A DNA stretch of 64,000 nucleotides from Novosphingobium decolorationis. Lineage in GTDB: Bacteria; Pseudomonadota; Alphaproteobacteria; Sphingomonadales; Sphingomonadaceae. Positions within the stretch are counted from its first letter, which is position 1. Each line of letters starts with the position of its first letter. Position numbers and translations under genes: made by a program. Positions 48,009 to 63,985 of the stretch are shown one piece after another. Under the pieces are notes generated by a model that made no database searches, had not been told where the DNA came from, and saw only the letters and a program-made list of their open reading frames with translations. The DNA lies in contig NZ_CP054856.1 in the NCBI RefSeq assembly GCF_018417475.1, positions 2,015,001 to 2,079,000 of the forward strand, read 5' to 3'.

Positions 48009-48023
48009 GGCCGGCACGCACGA

Positions 48024-48056
48024 GAGCCCCGCCGATAGACAGGTTCGGCGGGGCTC
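48024..48056. terminator. Hairpin between SDR and ligB
   Basis: 12-bp arms GAGCCCCGCCGA (48024-48035) and TCGGCGGGGCTC (48045-48056), 9-nt loop, between convergent stops. No long T-run, but placement fits a terminator for both. Confidence 0.7.
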
Positions 48057-48083
48057 CTGGCCTTTGTCTCATGCGAACGCCGG

Positions 48084-48926: not shown

Positions 48927-48930
48927 GGTC

Positions 48931-49320: not shown

Positions 49321-49389
49321 TCGGGCTATCCTCTTTATCCGGTCCTGTTAGATCGGAAACGAGGATAGGCGCGCGGGAAAGCCCCGTTC

Positions 49390-49403
49390 TTGATCGCGAT
49401 CAA
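49390..49403 (-). promoter_or_regulatory. FNR/CRP-type palindrome upstream of ligA
   Basis: TTGATCGCGATCAA, the perfect FNR half-site pair TTGAT-N4-ATCAA, extended to 16 bp (CTTGATCGCGATCAAG, 49389-49404). It lies 70-83 bp before the ligA start and outside any gene, in the 133-bp gap to the upstream SDR stop. Confidence 0.55.
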
Positions 49404-49453
49404 GCGCCTTGCTAGACGCGCGGGATCGGATGATACTTAGCCTGAACTTATGG

Positions 49454-50248
49454 CTACTCCGCGGTCCAGCCACCATCCACGACAAGGCTCGTGCCGGTCA
49501 TCATCGCCGAGGCATCGCCCGCCAGGAACAGCACCGCGCCCATCAGGTCCTCGGGCGCGCCGATGCGGCCGATCTTGATCTTCTCCAGAACACTGGCCTT
49601 GAACGCCGGGTCCTCGAAATAGGGTTTGGTAAGAGGGGTTTCGATGAAGGTCGGGGCAATCGTGTTGGAGCGGATGCCGTGGACGGCGAGGTCCAGCGCG
49701 AAGGCCTTGTTCATGCCCTCCAGCGCCCACTTGCTGGCGCAGTAGAGCGCGCGGTTGGGGCCGCCCACATGGCCCATCTGCGAGCCCATGTGGATGAGGC
49801 TGCCCTTGGTGCGCGTCGCCATCATCCGCTCCACGCAGGCCTGCGCGACGAAGAATGCGGCCCGGACGTTGAGGTCCATGACCGCATCGAAATCATCTTC
49901 GCTCGCCTCCCACATCGGCTTGGGGCGGTTGGTGCCCGCGTTGTTGAGGAGGACATGGAAAGGTTCGCGCGCGGCGAAGAAGGCGCGCACCGCGCCCGTG
50001 TCCGAGACATCGAGCGGGGCCGCCTCGGCCCGGTAGCCCGCCTCGCGCAACTGGCTGGCGGCGGCCTCGATCTCGCGTCCGGTGCGCGCCACCAGAGTCA
50101 CCTCGGCCCCCGCCTCGGCCAGCGCGGCCGCGGCGGCAAGGCCGATCCCGCGGCCTGCCCCCGTCACCACCGCGCGGCGCCCGTCGAGGCGGAAACTGGG
50201 TGTCACAGGAAGCGGCGTGGAGGGCGGGGTCATGGCGGGTCTTCTCAT
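49454..50248 (-). CDS. Short-chain dehydrogenase/reductase, gluconate-5-dehydrogenase-like
   Basis: 264-aa SDR: TGAGRGIGLAAAAALAEAGA, NNAGTNRPKP, catalytic Ser in HMGSQMGHVGG and YCASKWALEGM. The NNAGTNRPKP block is common in gluconate 5-dehydrogenase-type enzymes. ATG at 50233 is an alternative start. It is the gene before ligAB on the same strand; the 133-bp gap with a palindrome suggests ligAB also has its own promoter. Confidence 0.88.
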   Translation of the reverse strand: MRRPAMTPPSTPLPVTPSFRLDGRRAVVTGAGRGIGLAAAAALAEAGAEVTLVARTGREIEAAASQLREAGYRAEAAPLDVSDTGAVRAFFAAREPFHVLLNNAGTNRPKPMWEASEDDFDAVMDLNVRAAFFVAQACVERMMATRTKGSLIHMGSQMGHVGGPNRALYCASKWALEGMNKAFALDLAVHGIRSNTIAPTFIETPLTKPYFEDPAFKASVLEKIKIGRIGAPEDLMGAVLFLAGDASAMMTGTSLVVDGGWTAE

Positions 50249-50351: not shown

Positions 50352-53144
50352 TCAGGCGAAGGCGAGGTCGACCACCGTGCGCGTGGTGCCCTGCGCGATC
50401 TCCAGCGCGACCCGTCCGCGCGCATCGACATCGCGCGCCGCCCCATTGATGCGCAGGCCACGCCTTTGCTCCCGCCCACGCCCGAGCGTGAGCAGGCTGG
50501 TGCGCGCGGGGCCCGCCGCGTGTTCGAGCACGACACGGCACCGCGTGCCCGAGGACACTACTTCGATGGCCTCCTCGCGCGCGAAGCGCACACCGGGTGC
50601 CAGCTGCAGATCGAACGCCGCGTCCTGAAGGCGGACGTGGAAACGGCGGCGCACCCCGTCGCGCGGGACCACGCGCAAGCTCCCCCCTGCCTCCTCAAGG
50701 CGTCCGCAATGGGCGATACGCCCCAGCAGCGGATCGTCGGCAAGGGTCGTCGCGGCCGCGCGCAAGGCGCCGCAGAACCCCAGGTCGATCTCGCACGAAT
50801 AGTACCAGGACCCGTGCCAGTGCGGCTGGTCGAGCCAGGTCTGCCCCAGCGCCGCGGGCTCGAACCCGCCGCCCGCCGCGCCGTCGTTGGCCTTGCCCGG
50901 ATACCAGTACCCGTGGTCGCTTTCGGGTGTCCCGCTGTTGAGCAGCGCCCAGCTGCTCAGCGTCGAGGCATGCCCAAGACGCAGCAGCGCGTGGGGGTCC
51001 GGCGCATCGTGGAGCGCGTAGTCGAGCACGCCCCAGCCGCCCATCTGCGCCATGTAGGTCAGCGTATAGGCATCGCCGCCCTGCCCGCGGTAATCGCTGC
51101 CAAGGTAATAGTAGGAAGGCTCCAGCCAGCCCCGGCAGAACAGGTTGGCGGCAAACTGGCGCTCGCGAAAGGCGCGGGCGCGTTCGGGCGCGAAGGTGCC
51201 GGGCCGCTCCAGCGCGTAGCGGGCCATGGCCTGCGTCGATTCAAAGCCGGTGGAATCGAAGGCGTATTCCGAGACGAAGAGGTCCTCCACCTCCTCCACG
51301 AAGTGGCGCACCTTGCGCTCCCAGAAGCCGCGCAGTTCGCCCGCCCAGACATCCTTGCCTTCGGCCTCGAGCGCGTCGATGAGCTCGGGCAGGACGATCT
51401 CGTTGTAGTAGCCGATATTGTTCGCGTCCCAGCCGACCAGCGTGTCGGGCACGGTGAACATCGCGCGCGCGGTGCCAAAGGCGCGTTCAAGGTATGCGTC
51501 GGCCGAAAGTCGTGTCGAGACGCCCGGATGGAGCCGCGCGGCGCGGTACATCCCGAAGTACATGACGACGATGTGCGGGTAATCGTAGGTGCGCCACAGG
51601 TGCTCGCGCCCCTTGGGGCCGGGGTCCTCGCTCTCGCGGTTCCGCTTCCAGTCGAGGATGCCGTAGATGCCGTAAGGCCAGGGCTCCTCGGTCGTCTGCT
51701 GGAGACCGCCCCAGACGAAGTGCGCGATATACTCGTCGAGCGCATCGATCTCGGCCTGGACCGGGTATTCGGCAAGCTTGGCGCCGAGGAACGCGGGCTT
51801 GGACAGGCCCGGATCATCGCAGGTCACCTCGTAGATGCGCCAGCCCCCGATGCGGTCGTAGTTGTCGGGGCCCAGCAACACCTCGCTCTGCATGTTCCAT
51901 TCGGCGAGAAGCCCGTTGTACCACATGGCGGGATCGGTGTGGCGGTGGGCGGCGATGAAGGCCCCGCGCTTGGCGATCATCGTCTCGACCGGTTCGGTCG
52001 CGAAGAATTCGAGAGTCGTGCGCGCGCCGTTTTCCTGCACCAGCGTCAGGTGGTTCTCGCCCAGCCGTGCAAGTTCCACGCGGTAGAGCTGGCGCCCCGC
52101 CCGCGTCCCCAGCGCGGTGATGCGCGTGTCGCCGGGATGCTCGGCCTCGATCCGGGCGATGGGAATGCGCGAGCCCAGCGAGAGCGTGACCGCAAGATCG
52201 GTGGGCACGGTCATGCCCGGGCTCAGCTCGACATCGACAAGGCCGCGCTCCGCAATCGCGGCGCGCATCTGGGCATAGCCTTCGACCAGCGCAAAGGTCA
52301 CACCGCGCTGCGCGCGCGCGCCTGCGGCAAGGTGCAACGACGTCGCGGGAAGGCGCCAGCGCGAATGGGCCTTGCGCACCTCGTCCACCGCGCGCGCGGC
52401 GTGGAAATAGACCTGGTAGCAGGGGCCCTCGCGGCGAAAGCCCTCCCAGTATTCGAGCGCGCTGCCCTCCTGCGGGAACATCGCCAGCCAGGGCGTCGCA
52501 CTGTCCTTGCGCTGCCAGAACACGTGCGAGCCCGCGCCCGAAATGAAGCTGTGCTTCAAGAGCCCCTGCGGGTCCTTGCCGTCGCTTGCCTGCAGCTCGT
52601 TGATCGGCAGGCCCAGAGCCAGATCGCCCAGTTCGAGCGCCTCGCCGCCCGTGTTCGCCAGATCGAGCGTGAGGGCAAGATCGCCCCCCTCCAGCGCGAA
52701 GCGTACGACAAGGACCAGGCCCGCGCCCAGCGCATAGCGGGTGGCGAGCGTGTTCGCGGTCGCCTCTGCGACGTCGCCCGCCAGCGCCGTGGTGGCGAAG
52801 GTGCGCCATTCGCCCCCGCCGAGGCGGAAGCGTCCGCGCACCTCGCCCAGACGTCCGCCGGCGCGAATGAAGTCGCCAAGCGCCTCTTGGCCTGCGGCGA
52901 GCAGACTGGTGACGCAGCCACCCTCGCATCCGGTCACGAAGGCCGCCCCCTCCTCTGCCAATGCGCGGCTGACGCGGCGCACGCCCGGCTCGGCCGCGCG
53001 GGCGATGGCCGGGGCGAGCGCGGGCAGCGCCAGCGCGCCGACACCGCCTTTCAGAAGCGCGCGGCGCGAGGCCGTAGGCGAGCCGGTAGAAGCGGCGAAA
53101 CGGACACGGGGGGAAGTCATCCGGGCATCATCCAGGTCTGCCAC
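50352..53144 (-). CDS. Large exported protein, DUF5695-like (putative glycosidase fold)
   Basis: 930 aa. The leader SRRALLKGGVGALALPALAP resembles a Tat or Sec signal. The N-terminal half is beta-rich (supersandwich-like), the C-terminal half (about 380-800) is helical with many Trp, Tyr and acidic residues (HFVWGGLQQTTEEPWPYGIY, LVGWDANNIGYYNEIVLPEL), like an (alpha/alpha)6 barrel of six-hairpin glycosidases. I associate this architecture with DUF5695 proteins, uncharacterised. A start 24 bp downstream (MTSPRVRF) is possible. It lies downstream of the D-amino-acid dehydrogenase-like gene and near the alpha-galactosidase, so a role in glycan removal is a reasonable guess. Confidence 0.72.
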   Translation of the reverse strand: MADLDDARMTSPRVRFAASTGSPTASRRALLKGGVGALALPALAPAIARAAEPGVRRVSRALAEEGAAFVTGCEGGCVTSLLAAGQEALGDFIRAGGRLGEVRGRFRLGGGEWRTFATTALAGDVAEATANTLATRYALGAGLVLVVRFALEGGDLALTLDLANTGGEALELGDLALGLPINELQASDGKDPQGLLKHSFISGAGSHVFWQRKDSATPWLAMFPQEGSALEYWEGFRREGPCYQVYFHAARAVDEVRKAHSRWRLPATSLHLAAGARAQRGVTFALVEGYAQMRAAIAERGLVDVELSPGMTVPTDLAVTLSLGSRIPIARIEAEHPGDTRITALGTRAGRQLYRVELARLGENHLTLVQENGARTTLEFFATEPVETMIAKRGAFIAAHRHTDPAMWYNGLLAEWNMQSEVLLGPDNYDRIGGWRIYEVTCDDPGLSKPAFLGAKLAEYPVQAEIDALDEYIAHFVWGGLQQTTEEPWPYGIYGILDWKRNRESEDPGPKGREHLWRTYDYPHIVVMYFGMYRAARLHPGVSTRLSADAYLERAFGTARAMFTVPDTLVGWDANNIGYYNEIVLPELIDALEAEGKDVWAGELRGFWERKVRHFVEEVEDLFVSEYAFDSTGFESTQAMARYALERPGTFAPERARAFRERQFAANLFCRGWLEPSYYYLGSDYRGQGGDAYTLTYMAQMGGWGVLDYALHDAPDPHALLRLGHASTLSSWALLNSGTPESDHGYWYPGKANDGAAGGGFEPAALGQTWLDQPHWHGSWYYSCEIDLGFCGALRAAATTLADDPLLGRIAHCGRLEEAGGSLRVVPRDGVRRRFHVRLQDAAFDLQLAPGVRFAREEAIEVVSSGTRCRVVLEHAAGPARTSLLTLGRGREQRRGLRINGAARDVDARGRVALEIAQGTTRTVVDLAFA

Positions 53145-53183
53145 GCGAGCGGGCCGAGCGCCGCTTCACGTGTGGGCAAGAGG

Positions 53184-54404
53184 TCAGGCGAAACGGGAAA
53201 GGGCGAAGGGCGCGAGCGGCAGGCTGGTGCGGCGACCATCGAGCATCTCGGTCACGAGCCGTCCGGTGACAGCGGCCAGCGTCAGCCCCAGGTGCTGGTG
53301 CCCGAAGGCGTAGTAGAGGTTATCCGCGCGGTCCGAACGGCCAATCGCGGGCAGATAGTCGGGCAGGGTCGGGCGCGCGCCCATCCAGCGCTGGAACGGC
53401 CCGGTGATTGGCAGGCCAAGCTCGGCGATGTGGCGTTCCAGCCGCGCCCACTTGCGCGGGTCGGCGGGGGCATCGGCGCGCGCGAACTCGACGAAGCTCG
53501 CCGCCTGCACGCACGTGCGGTAGCGCGTGACGATCATCGCGCGCTCCTCGTAGACGACGGGCGGCAGGTCCTCGGGCCAGTGCTGCGCGTCGGCGCGCAC
53601 GTGATAGCCCCGCTCAGCGATGATCGGCACCTTGTGGCCGACAGGCGCCAGCAGCGCGACCGAGCGTACGCCCGCGCAGACCACCACCTGGTCACACTCG
53701 ACGCCCGCGATGGAGATGCGTCGGCCCTCGCGCACCAGGCGCCCCTCCCCCTCGATCCGCGTGCCGCCGCGCGCGGCAAAGGCGGCGTGAAGCGCCCCGC
53801 GCAGTTCATCCAGATCGGCGATCTGCGCGGTGCCGGTAAAGCGCATGGCGCCTGCAGGGTGCGCGGCACCGAGCGCCGAAAGACGCGCCAGATCCGCTGC
53901 CGAGGCGGGTGCGGCACTGGCGGTGCCCGTGTCCGCCGCCGCAAGATCGCGCGTGCCTTCCCGCGCGGCGCGTTCATCCAGCCAGGTCACCAGGTGCCCA
54001 CCTTCGCGCAGCAGGTCCGGTGCGCCGATCTCCTCCACTTGCGCGCGCCAGGCGGGAAGCGCCTCGGCCAGCAGCCGGGAGAGCGCCGTGCGCCCCGCCG
54101 CAAAGCGCTTCGCACCCGACGCGCCCAGAAGGCGTGTGGTGAAGGGAAGCCAGGTCGCGATCTCACGCGGGGGCAGCGCGAGCGGGCCGCCTGCGGCGAA
54201 CAGACGCCCCGGTACGCTGCGCACCTGCTCCATCGAGGCCAGCGGAGCGACCTGCTCGACCGCGATGTGCCCGGCGTTGCCCCAGGACGGGGCGGCGGCG
54301 CCGGGATCGTTGTCGAGGAGGGTGACGCGGTGGCCCGCCTTGAGCAGCGCCAGCCCTGCGGACAAGCCCACAACACCGCCTCCGATGATCCCCACGTGCC
54401 CCAT
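53184..54404 (-). CDS. FAD-dependent D-amino-acid dehydrogenase, probable D-hydroxyproline dehydrogenase
   Basis: 406 aa, DadA/glycine-oxidase family. MGHVGIIGGGVVGLSAGLAL at the N-terminus binds FAD; the C-terminal block NLYYAFGHQHLGLTLAAVTG is typical of D-amino-acid and D-hydroxyproline dehydrogenases (GHxHxG-like). The start at 54404 places the dinucleotide motif at residue 5; a frame 63 bp longer overlaps the promoter palindrome. Together with the epimerase and DapA-like gene it completes the oxidation of cis-4-hydroxy-D-proline. The promoter at 54430 carries a GntR-type site. Confidence 0.86.
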   Translation of the reverse strand: MGHVGIIGGGVVGLSAGLALLKAGHRVTLLDNDPGAAAPSWGNAGHIAVEQVAPLASMEQVRSVPGRLFAAGGPLALPPREIATWLPFTTRLLGASGAKRFAAGRTALSRLLAEALPAWRAQVEEIGAPDLLREGGHLVTWLDERAAREGTRDLAAADTGTASAAPASAADLARLSALGAAHPAGAMRFTGTAQIADLDELRGALHAAFAARGGTRIEGEGRLVREGRRISIAGVECDQVVVCAGVRSVALLAPVGHKVPIIAERGYHVRADAQHWPEDLPPVVYEERAMIVTRYRTCVQAASFVEFARADAPADPRKWARLERHIAELGLPITGPFQRWMGARPTLPDYLPAIGRSDRADNLYYAFGHQHLGLTLAAVTGRLVTEMLDGRRTSLPLAPFALSRFA

Positions 54405-54429
54405 CAAAAACTCCGTTGACCACAAACTT

Positions 54430-54447
54430 ATTTCGTATACGGTATAT
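54430..54447. promoter_or_regulatory. Predicted GntR operator (site 1)
   Basis: ATTTCGTATACGGTATAT, a near-palindrome around GTATAC in the divergent region of the dehydrogenase gene and the GntR gene. The core TCGTATACGG differs by one base from TCGTATACGA at 62749-62758. Confidence 0.65.
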
Positions 54448-54555
54448 CTAATTCGACGAGGCAGCAAGACTCAATGACCCGCAAATTGTCCCTTCCCGAC
54501 ACTCGGCCTGGCCAGGGTGGAGCCCTGCCCAAAGGTTCATTTGCGGGAACCGGAA

Positions 54556-54579
54556 CAACCGTCTACGTTATACGGTTGT
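54556..54579. promoter_or_regulatory. Inverted repeat before the GntR gene
   Basis: ACAACCGT (54556-54563) and ACGGTTGT (54572-54579) are exact complements around CTACGTTAT... spacing 8 bp, 45 bp before the GntR start. It contains a TATACGG half-element and could be an autoregulatory site. Confidence 0.45.
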
Positions 54580-54623
54580 CGCATGCGCCCTGCGGGCGTG
54601 ATGCATTCCTGGAGATTTGAGTC

Positions 54624-55280
54624 GTGACAATTGTAGTTCGGACACTGGCAGAGCGGATTTTCGAAGTCATCCGCGAGCGGATCATCGAAGGCAAGCTTTC
54701 GGTCATGGAGCCGGTCCGGCAGGACGCGCTCGCCAAGGAGCTGGGGGTCAGCAAGATCCCGCTGCGCGAAGCGCTCGCCCGCCTCGAGCATGAGGGGCTC
54801 CTCACCAGCCAGCCCAACCGCGGCTGGTTCGTCCAGCCGATGACGAGCGACCAGGCCGAGGAAATCTACGAGCTGCGCCTCGCCTTCGAGCCCGTCGCCG
54901 CCGCACGCGGCGCGCGCATGGCCACCGAGGAAGACCAGCAGGCCGCCATCGCCGCGTTCGAACGGCTCGACACGGCCGCCAATTCCGCGCTCAGCGAAGT
55001 GGGCGTGCGCAACCGCGAATTCCACGTGACGCTGGTGCGCCCGGGGCAGCGCCTGCTCACCACCCAACTGGTCGAGCGCCTCGAAGTGCTCGCCGAGCGC
55101 TACGTCATTGCCCACCTGGAGCCCGCCGGACGCGGCAACCGCGCGCACACCGAGCACAAGGGGCTGCTCGACGCCTGGCTCGCGCGCGACGAGGACGCCG
55201 TGCGCGCCCAGCTGACCCATCACATCGCCAACACGCTCGAAGACCTTCGGGCCCATTTCGCCGTCAGCCTGACCGGCTGA
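54624..55280 (+). CDS. GntR-family regulator, FadR/FCD subfamily
   Basis: 218 aa. Winged helix-turn-helix (about 5-75; LAKELGVSKIPLREALARLE) and an FCD ligand domain (about 80-212) with metal-binding type residues: Asp/Arg region ELRLAFEPVAA, His in NREFHVTL, HKGLLDAW and HHIANTL. The start is GTG, preceded by GGAGATTTGA. It heads the plus-strand operon with the permease and alpha-galactosidase, and palindromes near 54.4 kb and 62.75 kb fit FCD-type operators. The ligand may be hydroxyproline or a pathway acid. Confidence 0.92.
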   Translation: MTIVVRTLAERIFEVIRERIIEGKLSVMEPVRQDALAKELGVSKIPLREALARLEHEGLLTSQPNRGWFVQPMTSDQAEEIYELRLAFEPVAAARGARMATEEDQQAAIAAFERLDTAANSALSEVGVRNREFHVTLVRPGQRLLTTQLVERLEVLAERYVIAHLEPAGRGNRAHTEHKGLLDAWLARDEDAVRAQLTHHIANTLEDLRAHFAVSLTG

Positions 55281-55304
55281 CGCACTGCACAGCAAGGGGA
55301 CTGC

Positions 55305-56726
55305 ATGCTCGGACCGAGAAAGACACTCGAATCTCTCGCTCACCGCGAAACCGGGCATAGCCTTGCCAAGACCCTGAGCTGGCCGCACCTCGTGGCCCTG
55401 GGGGTCGGCGCCATCGTCGGCACGGGTATCTACACGCTGACAGGCGTGGGCGCCGAGCGTGCAGGTCCCGCAGTGATCCTGGCCTTCGCCATTGCGGGCG
55501 CGGTCTGCGCCTGCGCGGCGCTCGCCTATGCCGAGATGGCCACGCTGATCCCGGCGGCGGGCAGCGCCTATACCTTCAGCTACGCGGCCATGGGCGAGAC
55601 CGTCGCCTGGATCGTGGGCTGGAGCCTGATCCTGGAATACTCGCTCGCCTGCTCGACCGTGGCGGTGGGCTGGTCGGGCTATCTGGTCGGCTGGATCCAG
55701 TCGGCGGGCGTGCCGCTGGCCGAGATGCTGCTGACAGGCCCGTTCACCGGCGGCCTCATCAACCTGCCCGCCGTCCTGGTTGCGCTTGCCATCATGGGCA
55801 TGCTGATCGGGGGCACGCGCGAGAGCGCGACGCTCAACATCATACTCGTCATCATCAAGCTTGCCGCGCTCAGCGTCTTCGTCGCGATCGCCCTTCCCGC
55901 CTTCCAGGCCGACAATCTCCAGCCCTTCATGCCCTATGGCTTTGGCAGCAGCGAGATCGGCGGTGCCAAGCGCGGGGTCATGGCGGCCGCGGCCATCGTC
56001 TTCTTTGCCTTCTACGGCTTCGATGCGGTGGCCACCTCGGCCGAGGAAGCCAAGAACCCGGGCCGCGACCTTACCATCGGCATCATCGGCTCGATGCTGG
56101 TGTGCACGGTGATCTACATGGCGGTGGCCTTTGCCGCCGTGGGCGCGCTCCCGTTCCAGGAACTGGGCCACAGCGCCGAGCCGCTCGCGCTGGTGCTGCG
56201 CGCGCTCGACCAGCCCTTTGCCGCGCACGTCATCGCGCTCGCCGCGATCATTGCGCTGCCCTCCGTCATCCTGGTGATGATGTACGGGCAGAGCCGCGTG
56301 TTCTTCGTCATGGCGCGCGACGGGCTGCTGCCGCGCGCGCTTGCCCGGATCAACCCGAAGACCGGTGCGCCCACGCGCATCACGCTGATGACCGGTGTGT
56401 CCATCGCGCTGGTTGCGGGGATCTTCCCGCTCGACAAGATCGCCGAGATGGCGAACGCGGGCACGCTCATCGCCTTCATCGCGGTCGGCGCGTGCCTCAT
56501 GATCATGCGCCGCCGCGAGCCCGCGCTGCCGCGCCTGTTCCGCTGCCCGCAGCCCTACCTTGTCGGCACGCTCGCCATTGCGGGCTGCGCCTACCTGCTC
56601 TTCAGCCTGCCCACCGACACGCTCATCCGCTTTGCGATCTGGAACGTTGCCGGGCTGATCTTCTACTGCCTCTACAGCCGCCCGCGCAGCAGCGCCGGGC
56701 GCGATCTGGCCGCCCAGCGCGCCTGA
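55305..56726 (+). CDS. APC-superfamily amino acid permease (CAT/YfnA-like)
   Basis: 473-aa inner-membrane protein with 12 predicted helices. The first carries the backbone-binding motif VGAIVGTGIYTL, TM3-TM6 include AEMATLIPAAGSAYTFSYAA and the unwound TM6 FAFYGFDAVATSAEEAKNP, hallmarks of the cationic amino acid transporter type. It starts 24 bp after the GntR gene behind AAGGGG. In this setting it is a candidate importer of hydroxyproline or proline; substrate is inferred from neighbours only. Confidence 0.92.
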   Translation: MLGPRKTLESLAHRETGHSLAKTLSWPHLVALGVGAIVGTGIYTLTGVGAERAGPAVILAFAIAGAVCACAALAYAEMATLIPAAGSAYTFSYAAMGETVAWIVGWSLILEYSLACSTVAVGWSGYLVGWIQSAGVPLAEMLLTGPFTGGLINLPAVLVALAIMGMLIGGTRESATLNIILVIIKLAALSVFVAIALPAFQADNLQPFMPYGFGSSEIGGAKRGVMAAAAIVFFAFYGFDAVATSAEEAKNPGRDLTIGIIGSMLVCTVIYMAVAFAAVGALPFQELGHSAEPLALVLRALDQPFAAHVIALAAIIALPSVILVMMYGQSRVFFVMARDGLLPRALARINPKTGAPTRITLMTGVSIALVAGIFPLDKIAEMANAGTLIAFIAVGACLMIMRRREPALPRLFRCPQPYLVGTLAIAGCAYLLFSLPTDTLIRFAIWNVAGLIFYCLYSRPRSSAGRDLAAQRA

Positions 56727-56796
56727 CCCTGCATACCGGGCAGGACGCATCGGCGCGTCCTGCCCCCGCCATCCACGAACCCTGAGGAGACCTCCC

Positions 56797-58311
56797 GTGT
56801 CACGTTCCGCCGTGATTGCCGCCGCGCTTGCCGCCGTGGCCCTTCCCTTTGCGCCCGCCGCGCAGGCCAAGACCCCGTTTGACGGCGTCTGGCTGTTCGA
56901 CGAGGCCCCCGACCGCCCCGGCGTCACCATGATGGAGGTGCGCTCCAAGGGCGATGCCATCGAGGGCGAAGTCACCACCCAGTGGTATGGCCCGGTCACG
57001 ATGCAAAACGCGCGCCTCGAAGATGGCACGCTCACCTTCGAGGCCACCAACATCAACGACTGGGACCACCCAACCCGCACCTGGCACGTCGCCATGGCGG
57101 ACGGAAAGGTCCAGCTGACCGGCCAGATCTGGTTCAGCGAGATCGACGAGACCGGCCACAAGGGCACCGCGAAGGACGCGAAGGCGCGCGCCTTCGCGTT
57201 CACCGAACTGCCCGAGATGGGCGCGCCGATCCCCGGCACGCTGGCCCCCACCCCGCCGATGGGCTGGTCGAGCTGGAACAAGTTCGACGAGCACATCGAC
57301 GATGCCACGGTGCGCGCGATGGCCGACGCCATGGTCGCGACCGGCCTGCGCGACGCTGGCTACACCTACATCAACATCGACGATGGCTGGCAGGGCACGC
57401 GCGATGCCAGTGGCGCGCTGCAGCCCAACGCCAAGTTCCCCGACATGAAGGCGCTGACCGACTACGTCCACGCGCGCGGCCTCAAGATCGGCATCTACTC
57501 CTCGCAAGGGCCCAAGACCTGCGCGGGTTACGAGGGCAGCTACGGCCACGTGAAGCAGGACGCGCAGACCTTTGCCGACTGGGGCTTCGATTACCTCAAG
57601 TACGACCTGTGCTCGGGCGAGTGGTTCTACAACGACCGCGACACCGTGGTGCGCAGCTACTACGAGATGGGCAAGGCGCTGCGCGAGACGGGCCGCGACA
57701 TCCTCTTCTCGCTGTGCGAGTACGGCCGCTTCGAGGTCGGCAGCTGGGGCCGCGATGTCGGTGGCGAACTGTGGCGCACGACCGGCGACATCACCGACGA
57801 CTACAAGACGATGGCCGAAATCGGCTTCGATCACAACGGCAAGCCCGAGCACGCCGGCCCCCACGGCTGGAACGACCCCGACATGCTGGAAATCGGCAAC
57901 GGCGGGATGAGCGCGGACGAATACCGCACGCACATGTCGCTCTGGGCCATGTCGGCCGCCCCGCTGATGATGGGCCATGACCTGCGCGAGACGAGCGCAG
58001 ACATGCTGGCGATCCTCGCCAACCGCCGCGTCATTGCGGTCGATCAGGACACGCGCGGCATCCAGGGCCAGGCCGTGCGCACCGAGGGTACGACCGAAGT
58101 CTGGGCCAAGCCGCTCGCCGACGGGTCGGTGGCGCTGGCCCTCTTCAACCGCGCCGAGGCGCCGATCACCGCGACGATGAGCGCGGGCGATGCGGGCCTG
58201 GCGAGCGTGTCGAAGGTCGAGGATCTGTGGTCGGGCGCGGTCACGTCGGGCCTTGCGGGAAGCTACGAAGTCCCCGCGCACGGCGTAGTGATGCTGCGCG
58301 TCACCGCGTAA
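56797..58311 (+). CDS. Secreted alpha-galactosidase, GH27
   Basis: 504 aa. Signal peptide (MSRSAVIAAALAAVALPFAP to AQA). An extra N-terminal beta domain (about 27-140) precedes the GH27 barrel, which starts at TPPMGWSSWNKFDEH (about 152). Catalytic residues are visible: nucleophile Asp270 in DYLKYDLCS and acid/base Asp331 in WRTTGDI; INIDDGWQG and WNDPDMLEIGNGG are family blocks. A C-terminal beta domain ends the protein. It should remove terminal alpha-galactose outside the cytoplasm. GGAG lies before the start; same operon as GntR and the permease. Confidence 0.94.
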   Translation: MSRSAVIAAALAAVALPFAPAAQAKTPFDGVWLFDEAPDRPGVTMMEVRSKGDAIEGEVTTQWYGPVTMQNARLEDGTLTFEATNINDWDHPTRTWHVAMADGKVQLTGQIWFSEIDETGHKGTAKDAKARAFAFTELPEMGAPIPGTLAPTPPMGWSSWNKFDEHIDDATVRAMADAMVATGLRDAGYTYINIDDGWQGTRDASGALQPNAKFPDMKALTDYVHARGLKIGIYSSQGPKTCAGYEGSYGHVKQDAQTFADWGFDYLKYDLCSGEWFYNDRDTVVRSYYEMGKALRETGRDILFSLCEYGRFEVGSWGRDVGGELWRTTGDITDDYKTMAEIGFDHNGKPEHAGPHGWNDPDMLEIGNGGMSADEYRTHMSLWAMSAAPLMMGHDLRETSADMLAILANRRVIAVDQDTRGIQGQAVRTEGTTEVWAKPLADGSVALALFNRAEAPITATMSAGDAGLASVSKVEDLWSGAVTSGLAGSYEVPAHGVVMLRVTA

Positions 58312-58313
58312 GC

Positions 58314-58348
58314 GCCACGAGGGGGCGGGCCGCCCGCCCCCTCGTGGC
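58314..58348. terminator. Bidirectional terminator between alpha-galactosidase and DPP-IV genes
   Basis: 17-bp arms (58314-58330 and 58332-58348) separated by one base, GCCACGAGGGGGCGGGC and its complement, between convergent stops 40 bp apart. No T-run; very stable. Confidence 0.75.
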
Positions 58349-58351
58349 CCA

Positions 58352-60682
58352 TCAGAGCGCGGCGGCCTCGGCGCCGTGGGTCTGCAGCGCGTCCACGAAG
58401 AAATCGAACTGGCGGCGCGTCACATAGTCGATCGGGCCGCTCGAACGGCCGGTCGAATGTTCGCCGCCCGGCACGACCAGCAGGTCGAAATCCTTGTCCG
58501 CCGTGATGAGCGCATCGACCACCTGCATCGTCGAGGCCGGATCGACGTTGCTGTCCTGCTCGCCCACCACCATGAAGAGGCGGCCCCGAAGCTTGTCGGC
58601 GTGCTCCACGCCCGAGGCCGCAAGGTAGGACGCATCGACCGGCCAGCCGAGCCACTGCTCGTTCCAGCTGATCTTGTCCATGCGGTTGTCGTAGCAGCCC
58701 GCCAGCGCAAAGCCCGCCTTGTAGAAGTCGCCATGGAAAAGGAGCGCGTTGAGCGTGCTCTGCCCGCCCGCCGACGCGCCGTAGATCCCCACGCGCGAAA
58801 TGTCGTAGGAGGGATCGTGTGCGGCGAGCGCACGGTGCCAGGCGATGCGGTCGGGAAAGCCGGAATCGGCCAGGTTCTTCCAGGCCACGTCGTGGAACGC
58901 CTTGGAGCGGTTGGCCGTCCCCATGCCGTCGATCTGGACGACGATGAAGCCCAGGTCCGCCAGCGCCTGCATCCCGATCACCTTGTCGCCGCCCGAATGG
59001 TAGCCAAAGGGCCAGAAACTCTTGGGCACGAAGCTGTCGTGGGGCCCGGCGTAGATGTTCTCGATGACCGGGTACGATTTGGCCGGATCGTAGTCGCGCG
59101 GGCGCACGACAAGGCCCCAGATGTCACTCGTGCCATCGCGCCCCTTGGCGGTGAAGACTTCCGGGGGCCGGAAGCCTGCTTCGGTGAGCCGCGTGATGTC
59201 CCCTCGCGCGATCTCGGCCACGTTCGCGCCATCCTCGGCGCGGCGCAGCACGGTGACTTCGGGCGCATCGACGCGCGAATAGGTGTCGACGAAATGGCGC
59301 ATGTCGGGCGCGAAGCGGGCCTGGTGGTTGGCCCTCTCGGGCGTCAGGGCGACAAGGTTGCGCCCGTCGAAATCAACCCGGTAATAGTGCACGAAGTAAG
59401 GGTCCTCGCCCGGGGTCATGCCGCTTGCGGCAAACCAGATCCGGCGCGCCGCATCGTCCACCCGCACGACCTCGCGCACGACCCAGTCGCCCCTGGTGAT
59501 CTGACGGGCCACCTTCCCGCTCTTTCCATCGACAAGGTAGATGTGGCGGTTGCCATCGCGCTCGGAGGTCCAGAGCAGTTCCTTGCCCAGGCCATCTACG
59601 TCGTGGACGAAGCGCTTTTCGCCAAAGACGAAGGTGTCCGCTGTCTCCGTCACGGCGGCGTGCGCGCGGCCCGTGGCGGCGTCGACGGCGATCACCTTGG
59701 CCTCTTGGAAACCGCGCTGCATGTAGTCGAACTCGGCGCTCTCACCATCGCGCCGCCAGCGCGGGGCGGAGAGTTCGTAGGGGTTGGGAAAGAGCGCGGG
59801 GTCGATCTCGGTCACCACGCCGGTCGCCACATCGACGAGGACGGGCTGCTCCTGGTCGATGGCATCGCCGGGCTTGGGGTAAAGCTGGGTCTGCAGGCCC
59901 GGCTGCAGCTGTCCCGCAGGCGCCGCCTCGACGCGCAGCACATGGCGCGCGAAGCCCGGGCGCACGCGGTAGATCATCAGGTGGCGGCTGTCGGGCGACC
60001 AGGCGATGGTCTCGGGATCGTAGAAGTTGCCCTCGGTCCCTGTCGCCGTGCGCAGGCGCACTTCGCCCCCTTGCGCGCTGCGCACAAGGAGGTTGCTGTC
60101 CTCTACCAGCGCCTCCAGCGCGCCATCGGGTGAGACACGCGGGGTGTTGTCGGCGGGCACCGAGAGATCGCGCACCACGCCAAAGCCGCGCGGGCGTCCA
60201 GGAGAGGACAGCTTGCGGCAGGTGTAGTCGGCCAGATCGCATTCGTAGGGCGTGTAATCGATATGGAAGCGGATCGTCTGGCGCGCGGCGTCGGTGAAGC
60301 TGAACTCCTCGAACGGCAGGCGCAGCGGCGCGATCTCGTGGCCGAGCAGGTGGCCCAGACCTTCGGCGAGCCGGGCATGGTCAAAGGAGGGCGCGCGGGT
60401 CAGGCCGTCCAGCGCCACCGTCTCGAAGGCAAAGCCGCCTTCCACCGTGCGGCGGTAGGAGAAGGCCGTGCTGTCCGGCGTCCAGCTGGCGGGCCAGGCA
60501 ATGCCGCGCGTCAGGTACTGCCAATCCTCGCGCAGGTGTACCGAACGTGCGATTTCGGCGCGGGTGGGCTCGGCGTGGGCCGGAGAGGCGAGAAGCCCCG
60601 TCGCGAGCGCGGGAACGGCAACCGAGAGCGCCAGCGCAAGGCCAAGGAGCGGGGAACGGGACGCAGCGGACATGATGGGCAA
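58352..60682 (-). CDS. Exported dipeptidyl peptidase IV-type serine peptidase (S9B)
   Basis: 776 aa. Signal peptide (LLGLALALSVAVPALATGLL to AHA). An eight-bladed propeller (about 60-510) is followed by the alpha/beta-hydrolase domain with catalytic Ser in GIYGASAGGQS, Asp in GEQDSNVDP and His in PGGEHSTG. S9B peptidases remove X-Pro (and X-Hyp or X-Ala) dipeptides from N-termini. ATG at 60673 is an alternative start. It is the last gene of the minus-strand run DapA-like, epimerase, peptidase, although a hairpin lies before it. It could release Pro/Hyp dipeptides from plant or collagen peptides. Confidence 0.92.
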   Translation of the reverse strand: MPIMSAASRSPLLGLALALSVAVPALATGLLASPAHAEPTRAEIARSVHLREDWQYLTRGIAWPASWTPDSTAFSYRRTVEGGFAFETVALDGLTRAPSFDHARLAEGLGHLLGHEIAPLRLPFEEFSFTDAARQTIRFHIDYTPYECDLADYTCRKLSSPGRPRGFGVVRDLSVPADNTPRVSPDGALEALVEDSNLLVRSAQGGEVRLRTATGTEGNFYDPETIAWSPDSRHLMIYRVRPGFARHVLRVEAAPAGQLQPGLQTQLYPKPGDAIDQEQPVLVDVATGVVTEIDPALFPNPYELSAPRWRRDGESAEFDYMQRGFQEAKVIAVDAATGRAHAAVTETADTFVFGEKRFVHDVDGLGKELLWTSERDGNRHIYLVDGKSGKVARQITRGDWVVREVVRVDDAARRIWFAASGMTPGEDPYFVHYYRVDFDGRNLVALTPERANHQARFAPDMRHFVDTYSRVDAPEVTVLRRAEDGANVAEIARGDITRLTEAGFRPPEVFTAKGRDGTSDIWGLVVRPRDYDPAKSYPVIENIYAGPHDSFVPKSFWPFGYHSGGDKVIGMQALADLGFIVVQIDGMGTANRSKAFHDVAWKNLADSGFPDRIAWHRALAAHDPSYDISRVGIYGASAGGQSTLNALLFHGDFYKAGFALAGCYDNRMDKISWNEQWLGWPVDASYLAASGVEHADKLRGRLFMVVGEQDSNVDPASTMQVVDALITADKDFDLLVVPGGEHSTGRSSGPIDYVTRRQFDFFVDALQTHGAEAAAL

Positions 60683-60740
60683 CCCTGTTGTTTTCGTGGT
60701 GCGTGGGGCCCGCCAGCAGGGCCCGCTCTACAAATGCGAA

Positions 60741-60770
60741 GCGGGGGCGAGGTTATCCCCCCGCCCCCGC
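60741..60770 (-). terminator. Hairpin between epimerase and DPP-IV genes
   Basis: GCGGGGGCG (60741-60749) and CGCCCCCGC (60762-60770), 12-nt loop, right after the epimerase stop. It may partly separate peptidase expression from the upstream genes. Confidence 0.55.
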
Positions 60771-60780
60771 CGTACTTGGA

Positions 60781-61779
60781 TCAGGTGACCTGGAAACCGT
60801 CCCAGAACCTGTCCTCGCGGTCGATCCAGATGGTGTTGAACCCGGTGGCTATGGCCGAGCCTTCGATCGAGGGCACGATGGCGGGCGTGTCGCCCAGCGT
60901 GACCTCCTTCTCGACGCGTCCGATGAACTGGCTGCCGATGTAGCTTTCATGGACGAAGCGGTCCCCGACCTTGAGCTTGCCCTGCCCGGCCAGGTGGGCC
61001 AGGCGCGAGGACGTGCCCGTCCCGCACGGGCTGCGGTCGATGGCCTTGTCGCCGTAGAACACCGCGTTGCGCCCGTCCGCGCCCTCGCCTTGCGGAACGT
61101 CGGCCCACAGGACATGGCTGACGCCGCGGATGGTGGGGTCGAGCGGATGGACCGGCTCGAACGCGGCGCGCACCGCCTCGCGCACGCGCGGCGAGAGGGT
61201 GAGGATCTCGCTCGCGCTCATCGCCTCGAGGCCCGTGTAGGCGCCCTGCGGCTCGACGATGGCATAGTAGTTGCCCCCGTAGGAGACATCGACGGTGAGC
61301 GGGCCGAGCCCCTCCACGTCGATCTCGATCCCGCGCGCGGCGACATAGGAAGGCACATTGGTGATGCGCACCGAGGTCACCTTCGCGCCTTCGACGGTGT
61401 AGGCGATCTCGATGAGCCCGGCGGGGACCTCCACGCGCAGGCTGCCCGGTGTCGCGGGCTGGATCAGGCCATGCTCAAGCCCGAAGGTGATGATGCCGAT
61501 GGTCCCGTGCCCGCACATCGGCAGGCAGCCCGAGGTCTCGATGAAGAGAATGCCGATGTCGTTGGCGGGATCGGTCGGGGGATAGAGGAACCCGCCCGAC
61601 ATCATGTCGTGGCCGCGCGGCTCGAAGCACAGCCCGGTGCGGATCCAGTCGAAGCGCTCCAGGAAGTCCTGGCGGCGCTCGGACATCGTGGCCCCTTTCA
61701 ACAGCGGAGCCCCGCCCGCGACAAGGCGGACGGGGTTCCCGGCTGTGTGACCATCGATGCAGAAGAAGGTGTGTCGCAT
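60781..61779 (-). CDS. 4-Hydroxyproline 2-epimerase (proline racemase family)
   Basis: 332 aa. Both catalytic cysteines are present: PMCGHGTIG (about 89) and DRSPCGTGTSSR (about 251). The second Cys separates racemases/epimerases from trans-3-hydroxyproline dehydratases, which have Thr there. It turns trans-4-hydroxy-L-proline into cis-4-hydroxy-D-proline. Between the DapA-like gene (13 bp upstream) and the peptidase, and with a D-hydroxyproline dehydrogenase-like gene in the same locus, the epimerase call is much better than proline racemase. Confidence 0.92.
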   Translation of the reverse strand: MRHTFFCIDGHTAGNPVRLVAGGAPLLKGATMSERRQDFLERFDWIRTGLCFEPRGHDMMSGGFLYPPTDPANDIGILFIETSGCLPMCGHGTIGIITFGLEHGLIQPATPGSLRVEVPAGLIEIAYTVEGAKVTSVRITNVPSYVAARGIEIDVEGLGPLTVDVSYGGNYYAIVEPQGAYTGLEAMSASEILTLSPRVREAVRAAFEPVHPLDPTIRGVSHVLWADVPQGEGADGRNAVFYGDKAIDRSPCGTGTSSRLAHLAGQGKLKVGDRFVHESYIGSQFIGRVEKEVTLGDTPAIVPSIEGSAIATGFNTIWIDREDRFWDGFQVT

Positions 61780-61792
61780 CGAGGTTCCTGTA

Positions 61793-62707
61793 TCAGGCGA
61801 CGACGGGATCGGCGAGCACGGGCCGCGTCGCGGCTGCCTTCTCGACCATCGCGATCACCTCGGCGCGGCGTGCGCCGACCAGCGGCTGGCGCGGAGGCAG
61901 GACACGCTCGGACCCACGGCCCATGACCTGCTCGGCCAGCTTGATCGACTGGACGAGGTCATGTTCGGCATCGAGGTGCAGGAGCGGCATGAACCAGCGG
62001 TAGATCTCCAGCGCCTTGGCGTGGTCGCCGCGCTGGAAGGCGTTGACCAGTTCCACCGATTCGCGCGGGAAGGCGTTGGTGAGGCCCGAGACCCAGCCCT
62101 GCGCGCCCAGGTACAGACCTTCGAGCGCCACGTCGTCGAGCCCGGCGAAGAGCACGAAGCGATCGCCGCACGCGTTCTTCACGTCGGTGAAGCGGCGGCT
62201 GTCGGGGGCCGATTCCTTGACCGCGACGATGTTCTTCACATCGACCAGCGCCTCGAGCACCTCGGCGGTGATCTGTGTGCGGTAGGCGGGCGGGTTGTTG
62301 TAGAGCATGATCGGCAGGCCGGTGCTGTCGGCGACGCCCTTGAAGTGGGCGACCAGCTCGTGCGGCTGGGGCACGTAGACCATGGGCGGCAGCAACATGA
62401 GGCCGTCCGCGCCGATCTTTTCGGCCTGCTGGGCCCAGCGCGAGGCGCGGCGCACGTCGTATTCCGAAACGCCGGTGATGACCGGAACGCGCCCGGCCAC
62501 GGCCTCGACGATGCCGGTCAGGACTTCGACCTTCTCGTCGAATTCCAGCGAGTTGTTCTCGCCCACCGTGCCAAGGGCGATGACACCCGTCACGCCGTCA
62601 CGAATAAGATCGTCCACGACGCGCTGCGTATCGGCGACGTCGATCGACAGATCCTCGCGCACCTGCGTGGTAACGGCCGGGAAAACGCCCTTCCAATCAA
62701 TTGACAT
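61793..62707 (-). CDS. DapA-family lyase, probable 1-pyrroline-4-hydroxy-2-carboxylate deaminase
   Basis: 304-aa TIM-barrel class I lyase. The Schiff-base Lys is in NIVAVKESAPDSRR (about 166), the proton-relay Tyr in PIMLYNNPPAYRT (about 137) and the substrate-acid motif is ALGTVGENNSL (GTxGE). In hydroxyproline pathways this family deaminates the pyrroline product of the D-hydroxyproline dehydrogenase to 2-oxoglutarate semialdehyde. GAGGA precedes the start. A perfect GntR-type palindrome 38 bp upstream marks the promoter. The final semialdehyde dehydrogenase of the pathway is not in this locus. Confidence 0.9.
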   Translation of the reverse strand: MSIDWKGVFPAVTTQVREDLSIDVADTQRVVDDLIRDGVTGVIALGTVGENNSLEFDEKVEVLTGIVEAVAGRVPVITGVSEYDVRRASRWAQQAEKIGADGLMLLPPMVYVPQPHELVAHFKGVADSTGLPIMLYNNPPAYRTQITAEVLEALVDVKNIVAVKESAPDSRRFTDVKNACGDRFVLFAGLDDVALEGLYLGAQGWVSGLTNAFPRESVELVNAFQRGDHAKALEIYRWFMPLLHLDAEHDLVQSIKLAEQVMGRGSERVLPPRQPLVGARRAEVIAMVEKAAATRPVLADPVVA

Positions 62708-62744
62708 GAAAACTGTTCCTCAGGAGGTGAAATGCGAATATCGA

Positions 62745-62762
62745 GATATCGTATACGATATC
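62745..62762. promoter_or_regulatory. Predicted GntR operator (site 2), perfect 18-bp palindrome
   Basis: GATATCGTATACGATATC is fully self-complementary, 38 bp before the DapA-like start. The core matches the site at 54430-54447 near the GntR gene, so one regulator probably controls both ends of the locus. Confidence 0.75.
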
Positions 62763-62873
62763 ATAAAAGGTCTAGCAAGAGCACATTTGGACCAGGCGAC
62801 GATCAGGCCGCGCACACCGCACGGCTCACCGCGCGGGCGACATCGTGCGCCCGAGCGGTGGCACGCTGCGTGA

Positions 62874-63410
62874 TCAGTCGGGGATCTGGACGACGACCTG
62901 GAGTGTCCCGGCATTGTCCTTGAAGGTAATGTCGTTGAAGCCCAGGCTAAGCCCGCGCGCCTCGTCCGGCACGCCCACCCGCACGCCCGTCCCGACCGGG
63001 AAGGGCCTGCCCACCGGGCGCCCGTCTTCATCGGTAAAGACCGCCATGAGGGCATGGCGATAGACCGGATAGAGGATCTTGGGCGTGTAGAGGCTGGGAT
63101 AGACCCGCTTCTTGACGCGCAGGTCATCGGCCGCATCGCCCACGATGCCTTCCGGCCCGACCTCGGCCCCCTCGACCAGGGTCACGCCGCCGGACACCGG
63201 AAAGATCGCGACATTCGCCCCGGCCAGATCCTCGAAGCCCATGATCTGCACCGGGGCCTCGCCGTCGCCCTTGCCAAAGGACATGCCTTCAAAGGCATCC
63301 TCGTCCCAGGGCTGCGCGCGCGCGTCCACCTCGACCGTCACGTCACGGGCCAGGCCCGGCCCCGAACTCACCGCCGCCAGCGCGGCGAGAAACGTCAGCC
63401 CCGCCTTCAT
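62874..63410 (-). CDS. Exported PA-IL-lectin-like protein 1
   Basis: 178 aa with a signal peptide (MKAGLTFLAALAAVSSG to GLA). The C-terminal block LSLGFNDITFKDNAGTLQVV follows the N-D-x5-D-N-x-G pattern of PA-IL (LecA)-type galactose lectins and related domains; HALMAVFTDEDGRPVG and RPFPVGTG are the other conserved turns. It starts 4 bp inside the stop of the next gene (ATGA), its paralogue. Binding of galactose-bearing glycans is suggested, matching the alpha-galactosidase 5 kb away. Similarity is by eye, and calcium-site residues need alignment. Confidence 0.68.
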   Translation of the reverse strand: MKAGLTFLAALAAVSSGPGLARDVTVEVDARAQPWDEDAFEGMSFGKGDGEAPVQIMGFEDLAGANVAIFPVSGGVTLVEGAEVGPEGIVGDAADDLRVKKRVYPSLYTPKILYPVYRHALMAVFTDEDGRPVGRPFPVGTGVRVGVPDEARGLSLGFNDITFKDNAGTLQVVVQIPD

Positions 63411-63985
63411 TGCGCCTGCTCCTGTTCAAGGATGACACGGGCTTCGGGCACATGGACCTCGACGAGGAGTTCGCCTTCGTTTTCATGGAACACATCGTCG
63501 TTGATCCCGAAGGTGATGGCTTGTGCCCCCTCGGGGACCTGCCGCGCCGTCTCCCGGCCGATCAGGAACGGCGCGCCGATGACCTTGCCATCCGCGCTGA
63601 CGAAGGCACCGATCAGCGCGTTGAGGTGCGCAGGGTAGTCCGCCTTGTCGAGGTAGTAACTGGGAAACAGCCGCCCCGAGCCGCCCGGGCGTTTTTCCGT
63701 CACGTAGTCGATCTGCCCTTCGGGCCCGAACCGCGCGCCGCCCGGCAGGGTCGTGGTCTCGCCGTGCGCGCGAAAGGTGATGGTGCTGCCTGCGATGAGG
63801 CTTGCGCCAAAGAGCATCGCCGGGCGCGTACCGTCGCGGATGCCGAAATCCATGTCCTTGTTGATTGCCGGGCTCCAGGGCATCGTCCGCCCGGAGACCT
63901 TCACGGTAAAATCCTGGGCTTGCGCGGGGAGCGCGGCCAGACCGGCAAGCCCTGCCAGCGCTGCCGCGCGAAAGGAGTAGCGCAT
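63407..63985 (-). CDS. Exported PA-IL-lectin-like protein 2
   Basis: 192 aa with a signal peptide (MRYSFRAAALAGLAGLAALPA). Same layout as its neighbour: RFGPEGQIDY, LNALIGAFVSADGKVIG, PFLIGRET and the block ITFGINDDVFHENEGELLVE with N-D-x5-E-N-x-G. It has an acidic, Gln-rich tail (LEQEQAQ). AGGAGGATCCC before the ATG is a strong ribosome site. The pair is co-translated and could form a heteromeric surface or periplasmic sugar-binding complex. The role is inferred. Confidence 0.68.
   Translation of the reverse strand: MRYSFRAAALAGLAGLAALPAQAQDFTVKVSGRTMPWSPAINKDMDFGIRDGTRPAMLFGASLIAGSTITFRAHGETTTLPGGARFGPEGQIDYVTEKRPGGSGRLFPSYYLDKADYPAHLNALIGAFVSADGKVIGAPFLIGRETARQVPEGAQAITFGINDDVFHENEGELLVEVHVPEARVILEQEQAQ

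Follow-up and report, generated by a model that had tools for sequence, protein, structure and literature searches.

A candidate HypR-type regulon joining hydroxyproline catabolism to enzymes for plant cell-wall glycoproteins in Novosphingobium decolorationis

The extensins of plant cell walls are tough proteins with a heavy load of arabinose, and the locus described here raises the question of whether a bacterium could use both their sugar and their protein. It lies in a 64,000-nt stretch of the genome of Novosphingobium decolorationis (G000:C1:2015001-2079000; hereafter the window), where a first-pass annotation of positions 50352-63985 had proposed that galactose is stripped, Pro/hydroxyproline (Hyp) peptides are cut and Hyp is degraded. 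All ten genes of that region were found at the positions it had given (Pfam/NCBIfam). The locus runs on beyond 63985, with about 18 kb of further genes past the window end; coordinates above 64000 continue the window numbering. The strongest evidence sits just beyond that end, and an arabinosidase found there is the piece that had been missing from the glycoprotein hypothesis. Here, we show by sequence analysis that the genes have a common operator at four promoters and that in some relatives the arabinosidase, DUF5695 and peptidase genes again adjoin those for Hyp catabolism. In our view, the locus is probably one HypR-type (GntR/FCD) regulon for the complete use of hydroxyproline-rich cell-wall glycoproteins (HRGPs), most likely of the extensin type. 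The proposal is strengthened because the arabinosidase, together with a second DUF5695 protein (DUF5695b), lies next door, one operator is shared, and in two of eight Bacteroidota loci GH127 and GH27 accompany a Hyp pathway. Genes past the window were called with a home-made codon score, which leaves the start codons of the GH43, DUF885, HExxH and second TonB receptor genes uncertain, and signal peptides of the locus proteins were assigned by eye.

The window holds the core of a Hyp pathway. The 4-hydroxyproline 2-epimerase HypE (60781-61779, minus strand) scores 543 bits against NF010578 (cut-off 376) and has the Cys motifs CGHG and DRSPCGTG, which bears out its earlier annotation as a hydroxyproline epimerase. 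The FAD protein at 53184-54404 (minus strand), earlier called D-hydroxyproline dehydrogenase-like, does belong to the DAO family (Pfam DAO, 144 bits), but it does not reach an equivalog cut-off (NCBIfam D-amino acid dehydrogenase subfamily, 132 bits, under the cut-off of 383). Similarly, the DapA-type deaminase (61793-62707, minus strand) is a DHDPS-family protein (Pfam DHDPS, 199 bits) for which no equivalog model scored at cut-off. From family and position, we regard the two as candidates for HypO and for HypD, the pyrroline-4-hydroxy-2-carboxylate deaminase. A known sugar-acid dehydratase was considered for the DapA protein and set aside; its solved relatives are generic, the best at 136 bits. 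The predicted amino acid permease (APC; 55305-56726, plus strand) is confirmed by AA_permease_2 at 192 bits, and the putative HypR-like regulator (54624-55280, plus strand) has the GntR and FCD domains of Pfam above cut-off. Among the matches listed, Novosphingobium profundi is the closest named relative, with a HypE of 98% identity and other shared locus proteins that are 92-100% identical, except for a 24% cross-match of DUF5695b.

Enzymes for the sugars lie on both sides of the window end. The GH27 protein (56797-58311, plus strand; Melibiase_2, 234 bits; export leader by eye) had been called an alpha-galactosidase, and its closest solved relatives are indeed the alpha-galactosidases 6f4c (327 bits) and 1uas (312 bits), both presumably of plant origin; a role as beta-L-arabinopyranosidase was rejected at 89 bits versus 327. 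It is a candidate for the removal of Ser-O-alpha-galactose. The beta-L-arabinofuranosidase (71523-73895, minus strand) scores 395 bits against PF07944 and 93 bits against PF20736, and has the E-x-C and CC motifs. As its best solved match is 5opj at 468 bits, which we take to be the GH146 enzyme BT0349, against 58-99 bits to the GH127 chains 3wkw and 4qjy, it appears GH146-like, and GH127 proper was rejected. For two GH146 members, XeHypBA1 and Bll4HypBA1, activity on arabinofuranose beta-linked to Hyp (Araf-beta-Hyp) has been described (PMC10850190). A GH43 gene, recognised by Pfam, lies at ~67031-68650 (minus strand). The beta-L-arabinobiosidase GH121 was not seen in the locus, for which no GH121 model was run.

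What ties these genes together is a 16-bp palindrome, ATATCGTATACGATAT, found by reading the intergenic stretches. The perfect copy (62746-62761) stands upstream of HypD-HypE-S9, a copy with 2 mismatches, ATTTCGTATACGGTAT (54430-54445), occupies the divergent promoter between the DAO gene and GntR-permease-GH27, and the other two, at 66849 and 73915, belong to the promoters of a TonB receptor (TBDR1) and of the arabinosidase/DUF5695b pair. The consensus was taken from this locus first and then counted elsewhere. A scan of the 4.75-Mb genome gave only four sites with at most 2 mismatches, all four in the locus. Allowing 3 mismatches added five sites, for a total of nine; none of the five is in the locus, and one falls at window 16075. 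With the pattern reversed, the genome gave 1 site at up to 3 mismatches, and in 30 simulations a Markov model of the 107-kb stretch predicted 0.00 sites when 2 mismatches were allowed and 0.03 when 3 were. Since the arabinosidase/DUF5695b and receptor sites are 4-20 kb from the Hyp promoters, the arabinosidase, DUF5695b and the receptor carry the Hyp control element at promoters of their own. We infer, in line with described HypR regulators, that the GntR protein of the locus binds the palindrome. Gene order suggests six operons, given here as predicted transcripts: DAO-DUF5695a, GntR-permease-GH27, HypD-HypE-S9, TBDR1-lectins, arabinosidase-Ldh_2-DUF885-GH43 and DUF5695b-M24-HExxH.

The operator is also found in relatives. 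About 300 bp upstream of each gene were searched at up to 3 mismatches in 80 proteobacterial loci, with genes taken as hits at 35% identity or more and 80 bits if the 5' end could be placed; the Bacteroidota loci L072, L074-L076, L079-L081 and L084, and also L091, L092 and L097, were left out. The operator precedes the DAO gene in 39/59 cases, HypD in 45/65, GH127/146 in 13/19, DUF5695b in 7/11 and TBDR1 in 4/4. It is less often upstream of Ldh_2 (6/25), M24 (6/44), HypE (5/75), DUF885 (4/35) and GH43 (1/10), rare before GntR (1/50) and the permease (1/30), and absent before DUF5695a (0/2), HExxH (0/3) and the LecA-like genes (0/1 each). Forty shuffled palindromes averaged 0-0.05 per promoter set, and 0.03 for the GH127/146 set. 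These counts partly overlap, as a site in a divergent promoter is scored for both genes: DAO and HypD have one common site near 9.0 kb in many relatives, and L006, L007, L010, L032, L088 and L089 count for both GH127 and DUF5695b.

How often do the sugar enzymes accompany Hyp catabolism? We compared the best 80 HypE loci of at least 593 confirmed relatives, with flanks of up to 10 kb on each side (61 loci of at least 20 kb), and sought 19 locus proteins near HypE at 40% identity or more and 80 bits; close species repeat among the 80 loci, and the counts are not independent events. HypD was present in 68/80, the HypO-like DAO protein in 49/80, GntR in 44/80, M24 in 39/80, DUF885 in 31/80 and the permease in 27/80, followed by Ldh_2 (24/80), GH127/146 (23/80), DUF5695b (11/80), GH43 (10/80) and GH27 (8/80). 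TBDR1 (4/80), S9 and HExxH (3/80 each), DUF5695a (2/80) and the two LecA-like proteins (1/80 each) were seldom found, and the second TonB receptor never (0/80). Of sixteen genes taken as controls from the flanking chromosome, fourteen gave 0/80 and two 1/80. At least one of GH127, GH27, GH43 and DUF5695 occurred in 30/80 HypE loci, and the relatives with glycan genes include, among the matches listed, Leaf242, Leaf26, Root343 and Leaf170. Among 147 sampled genomes of the order, 15 had HypE above cut-off and 13 had GH127/146, and four had both (G000, the genome studied here, G048, G110 and G126).

Linkage of this kind is also seen in Bacteroidota, where eight loci were compared, the proteins of L074 and L075 by Pfam scan and the others by BLAST to the locus proteins. 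In two of the eight, both from Mucilaginibacter (L074, L084), the genes run GH127-GH27-HypD-aldehyde dehydrogenase-HypE-DAO, and a short contig (L072) has the same run from GH27 onwards. The locus of Pedobacter sp. Leaf170 (L075) begins with a DUF5695 gene truncated where the stretch ends, a TonB receptor, an open reading frame (ORF) without assignment and an M1 peptidase, and continues with HypD, an aldehyde dehydrogenase-like gene, HypE, DAO, AraC, DUF885, a permease-like gene, S9 and GH43. L076 joins Hyp genes to S9 and a weak GH43 match, and no glycan genes were seen in L079, L080 and L081. The BLAST matches are weak for DAO (21-25%) and for the GH127 of L084 (23%), and the aldehyde dehydrogenase, confirmed by Pfam in L074, was read from size and place in the other loci.

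The last step of the Hyp pathway is not encoded in the locus: the genome has 27 PF00171 matches, all of them elsewhere, and so the locus has no aldehyde dehydrogenase (KGSADH, hypH). A separate locus at 1.575-1.586 Mb contains GH43, an alpha-L-arabinofuranosidase, a Gfo/Idh dehydrogenase, an AraD1-family protein (521 bits, cut-off 340), an aldehyde dehydrogenase, an MFS transporter, an aldose epimerase and a sugar-acid dehydratase. From this gene content, and because an L-arabinose isomerase route is excluded by the lack of any PF02610 match in the genome, we read it as an L-arabinose oxidation route. It has a GntR/FCD regulator of its own (L128 845-14004; G000 1.573-1.586 Mb). Its aldehyde dehydrogenase matches 3v4c at 525 bits and shares 48% identity with that of the Mucilaginibacter gene run, from which it is conceivable that the final step of the arabinose branch and that of the Hyp branch could be carried out by one enzyme. 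Within the locus, Ldh_2 (70384-71478, minus strand) is closest to the delta1-piperideine-2-carboxylate reductase 1wtj (227 bits; next match 121). That a protein near delta1-piperideine/pyrroline-2-carboxylate reductases adjoins the arabinosidase suggests that D-proline or 3-hydroxyproline may also be handled.

The two DUF5695 proteins are the most promising unknowns of the locus, and a likely function can be offered for the family. DUF5695a (50352-53144, minus strand), which the first-pass annotation had described as a large exported DUF5695-like protein, matches the Pfam family at 149 bits (cut-off 25) and has a twin-arginine-like leader by eye, in agreement with that description; DUF5695b (74166-76919, plus strand) is a canonical member at 1266 bits. 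The fold, an N-terminal beta-sandwich followed by an alpha/alpha barrel, is that of PL27, and the L-rhamnose-alpha-1,4-D-glucuronate lyase BACCELL_00875 of PL27 is both the closest fold and the only solved sequence relative. Identity is ~16% over the aligned part, and the DUF5695 proteins here are ~220-240 residues longer. DUF5695 is thus a distant relative of PL27 lyases. VIA-align placed no polysaccharide lyase family besides that of BACCELL_00875 near the top, which excludes nothing. The family is rare: it was found in 3/147 genomes of the order, 4/397 of a phylum sample and 2/197 of the order of G321, where HypE was above cut-off in 23/197; the samples overlap, with G000 and G048 recurring. 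Four of the six distinct genomes (G000, G048, G321, G545) have HypE 5-13 kb away on the same contig, and in G110 the DUF5695-arabinosidase pair and HypE are each ~10 kb or less from the ends of different contigs. The sixth, G180, an 8-Mb alphaproteobacterial genome with a DUF5695a-like protein only (L091 14523-17333), shows no Hyp genes in the stretch examined; this speaks against all DUF5695 proteins belonging to Hyp loci, and the DUF5695a branch has other contexts. In the open-licence literature, one paper, on fungi, mentions DUF5695. Tentatively, and at slightly short of even confidence, we suggest that DUF5695 is an unrecognised carbohydrate-active family acting on HRGP glycans, which takes the place of GH121 within whole-glycoprotein regulons of Proteobacteria and Bacteroidota.

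Several peptidases accompany these enzymes. In S9B dipeptidyl peptidase IV, a double-Glu motif serves N-terminal X-Pro recognition. The S9 peptidase of the locus (58352-60682, minus strand; export leader by eye) had been annotated as S9B and X-Pro-type; the S9 domain, the DPPIV-like propeller (Pfam DPPIV_N and Peptidase_S9) and the triad stand, with GxSxGG, Asp and His motifs at 635, 707 and 739, but the X-Pro type is putative, and no double-Glu motif was seen by eye in the propeller segment inspected; the only EE is at 125. Past the window are DUF885 (~68655-70436, minus strand), an M24 peptidase (77027-78226, plus strand), whose best NCBIfam models (aminopeptidase and Xaa-Pro dipeptidase, ~126 bits) are far under their cut-offs, and an HExxH protein without Pfam family (ending at 79211, plus strand). 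A long C run at ~76998-77020 (L085 ~3998-4020), just upstream of the M24 gene, could be a variable tract or an assembly matter.

Two exported lectin-like proteins had also been predicted, and modelling of the first bears this out. Lectin 1 (62874-63410, minus strand) has a predicted structure of the LecA (PA-IL) fold. The gene of the second, LecA-like protein (63407-63985, minus strand) shares 4 bases with that of lectin 1, and the two proteins have 35% identity over 159 residues. Neither matches a Pfam family, and lectin 1 has no sequence match in the PDB below E 0.75. Compared with the galactose-binding LecA, the pair is longer, has insertions, stands in tandem and lacks a sequence match; the fold modelled for lectin 1 is that of LecA. 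N159-D160 and N166 are invariant in 17 sequences and may correspond to the calcium/galactose site of LecA. LecA1 was also sought in plasmids, with no match. TBDR1 (64086-66809, minus strand) lies next to the lectins, and a second TonB receptor ends at 82019 (plus strand). A strong hairpin followed by TTTT on the minus strand (63986-64085), terminator-like by eye, separates TBDR1 from the lectin pair and perhaps gives the lectins another expression level.

We infer the substrate and the enzyme specificities of the locus from sequence, and the route would run as follows. The LecA-fold lectins would bind glycopeptides, which a TonB receptor would take up. Once in the periplasm, they would lose Hyp-linked arabinofuranose to GH43 and the GH127/GH146 enzyme and Ser-linked alpha-galactose to GH27, and the DUF5695 proteins would take off a further substituent, leaving a bared peptide to be cleaved by DUF885, S9 and the HExxH protein. 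Hyp or small peptides would be imported by the permease, the cytosolic M24 enzyme would split Xaa-Hyp/Pro, and HypE, the DAO protein and HypD would convert L-Hyp to 2-oxoglutarate semialdehyde, with the KGSADH-like enzyme of the separate L-arabinose locus completing this branch and that of arabinose alike. Hyp itself would relieve the HypR-like repressor and switch the locus on.

A number of observations weigh against this route. Separation of GH27 and S9 from the Hyp genes in all relatives, which the first-pass annotation had named as speaking against its proposal, was not observed. The two are nevertheless apart from the Hyp genes in most relatives, within the stretches examined, so that both are accessory; M24, DUF885, the permease, Ldh_2, GH127/146 and DUF5695b recur more often. 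Neither has an operator directly upstream in relatives (0/5 for GH27, 0/4 for S9), and they would need read-through from upstream genes. The terminator-like hairpin stands between TBDR1 and the lectins, and the KGSADH candidate is outside the locus, in the arabinose locus, which is free of operator copies at up to 3 mismatches. The HypAA type is putative for GH43, whose closest solved relative is gly43N 3qee at 163 bits. In G126, HypE and GH127/146 are unlinked, ~1 Mb apart, and 9/13 GH127/146 genomes lack HypE above cut-off. The leaf isolates Sphingomonas Leaf339 and Aureimonas Leaf427 have no glycan genes in the stretch examined. Finally, GH146 enzymes are also described as active on arabinan and arabinogalactan (PMC10850190), and the nearest solved relative of DUF5695 acts on an arabinogalactan protein (AGP), not on extensin.

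This last point leads to the main rival substrate. If DUF5695 were a PL27-like lyase removing rhamnose caps from glucuronate and GH146 were to remove beta-1,3-Araf from the arabinogalactan, the glycoprotein would be an AGP instead of an extensin; BACCELL_00875 is reported to free rhamnose from gum arabic (PMC8377490), and GH146 activity on AGPs is described (PMC10850190). We consider this unlikely, since no galactanase, beta-galactosidase or glucuronidase family, expected for AGP catabolism, occurs among the Pfam-scanned ORFs of the locus, and an alpha-galactosidase with enzymes for Hyp-arabinosides suits extensin better. Extensin is therefore our best guess. The targets could also be small arabinosylated or galactosylated Hyp peptides, such as plant peptide hormones, Hyp-rich exudate peptides or algal HRGPs, for which TonB uptake and a cytosolic M24 peptidase would be suitable; the sequence gives nothing that separates such peptides from extensin fragments, and as the two overlap, we give this version a small chance only.

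It is also possible that Hyp or proline peptides of any source, for example collagen, are scavenged in the ordinary way, beside an unrelated pectic-arabinan cluster brought near by chance or by the clustering of catabolic islands. Fifty of the 80 HypE loci have none of GH127, GH27, GH43 and DUF5695 in the stretch examined, 11/15 HypE genomes of the order sample lack GH127/146, and BT0349 acts on arabinan-derived oligosaccharides (PMC10850190). This reading is nevertheless very improbable in view of the operator common to independent promoters, the recurrence of the linkage in several genera and in Bacteroidota, and the separate arabinose-type locus (GH43, arabinofuranosidase, arabinose catabolism), which lacks that operator at up to 3 mismatches. 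What the 50 loci do suggest is that glycoprotein use belongs to a subset of relatives.

The extensin-type HRGP regulon favoured here has two sets of precedents. HypR regulons of Proteobacteria and Streptomyces have in common with it a GntR-family regulator, the hypE/hypO/hypD core and an upstream expansion towards a source of Hyp (PMC5343134, PMC6608401). As described, they add secreted collagenases and proline peptidases (PMC5343134) or a collagenase (PMC6608401), with proline dipeptidases and a TonB receptor also among the additions and collagen or peptides as source, whereas here an arabinosidase, an alpha-galactosidase, DUF5695 and lectins are recruited, and hypH (KGSADH) is outside the locus. 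The HypBA1/HypBA2/HypAA systems of Bifidobacterium longum and Xanthomonas euvesicatoria likewise have GH127/GH146 and GH43 (PMC6085000, PMC7263609, PMC10850190). Bacterial extensin use is described there as arabinose removal (PMC6085000, PMC7263609); GH121 is a key enzyme, and the available parts of those descriptions mention no Hyp catabolism, lectin or alpha-galactosidase. In Xanthomonas, a prolyl oligopeptidase gene broken by a frameshift adjoins the HRGP-arabinoside genes (PMC6085000). Extensin use has been inferred from GH127 in a Latescibacteria genome analysis (PMC4454575), and the Svx gluzincin peptidase of Pectobacterium, which degrades extensin with Ser-O-Gal recognition proposed (PMC13164431), is a precedent for a bacterial metallopeptidase on extensin. 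No report that combines an arabinosidase and a galactosidase with Hyp catabolism came to light in the open-licence literature, nor any paper with hydroxyproline epimerase and arabinofuranosidase together, so that the earlier statement that no described cluster joins these parts holds there, with the HypR-collagenase regulons and the Xanthomonas HRGP genes as close precedents. The HypR regulon and the HRGP arabinosidases are each known; their combination in one locus appears new as far as that literature goes.

The genes directly upstream (44276-50248), a LigAB-type ring-cleavage dioxygenase, two short-chain dehydrogenases and a TonB receptor, form an aromatic catabolism cluster apparently unrelated to the Hyp locus. 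A second LigB-like ORF was seen by eye at extended position 98991-99899, and a transposase-like ORF with an IS6-type look by eye lies amid aromatic genes at window 36598-37398.

We would like to point out what the locus would mean for its bearers. A compact, co-regulated route would use both the sugar and the protein of extensins, and it offers one operator for footprinting and a candidate pair of plant-glycan lectins. If the suggested role of DUF5695 is true, this family would replace the GH121 of Bifidobacterium and Xanthomonas in regulons that consume arabinose, galactose and Hyp, with the arabinose and Hyp routes meeting at the same semialdehyde.

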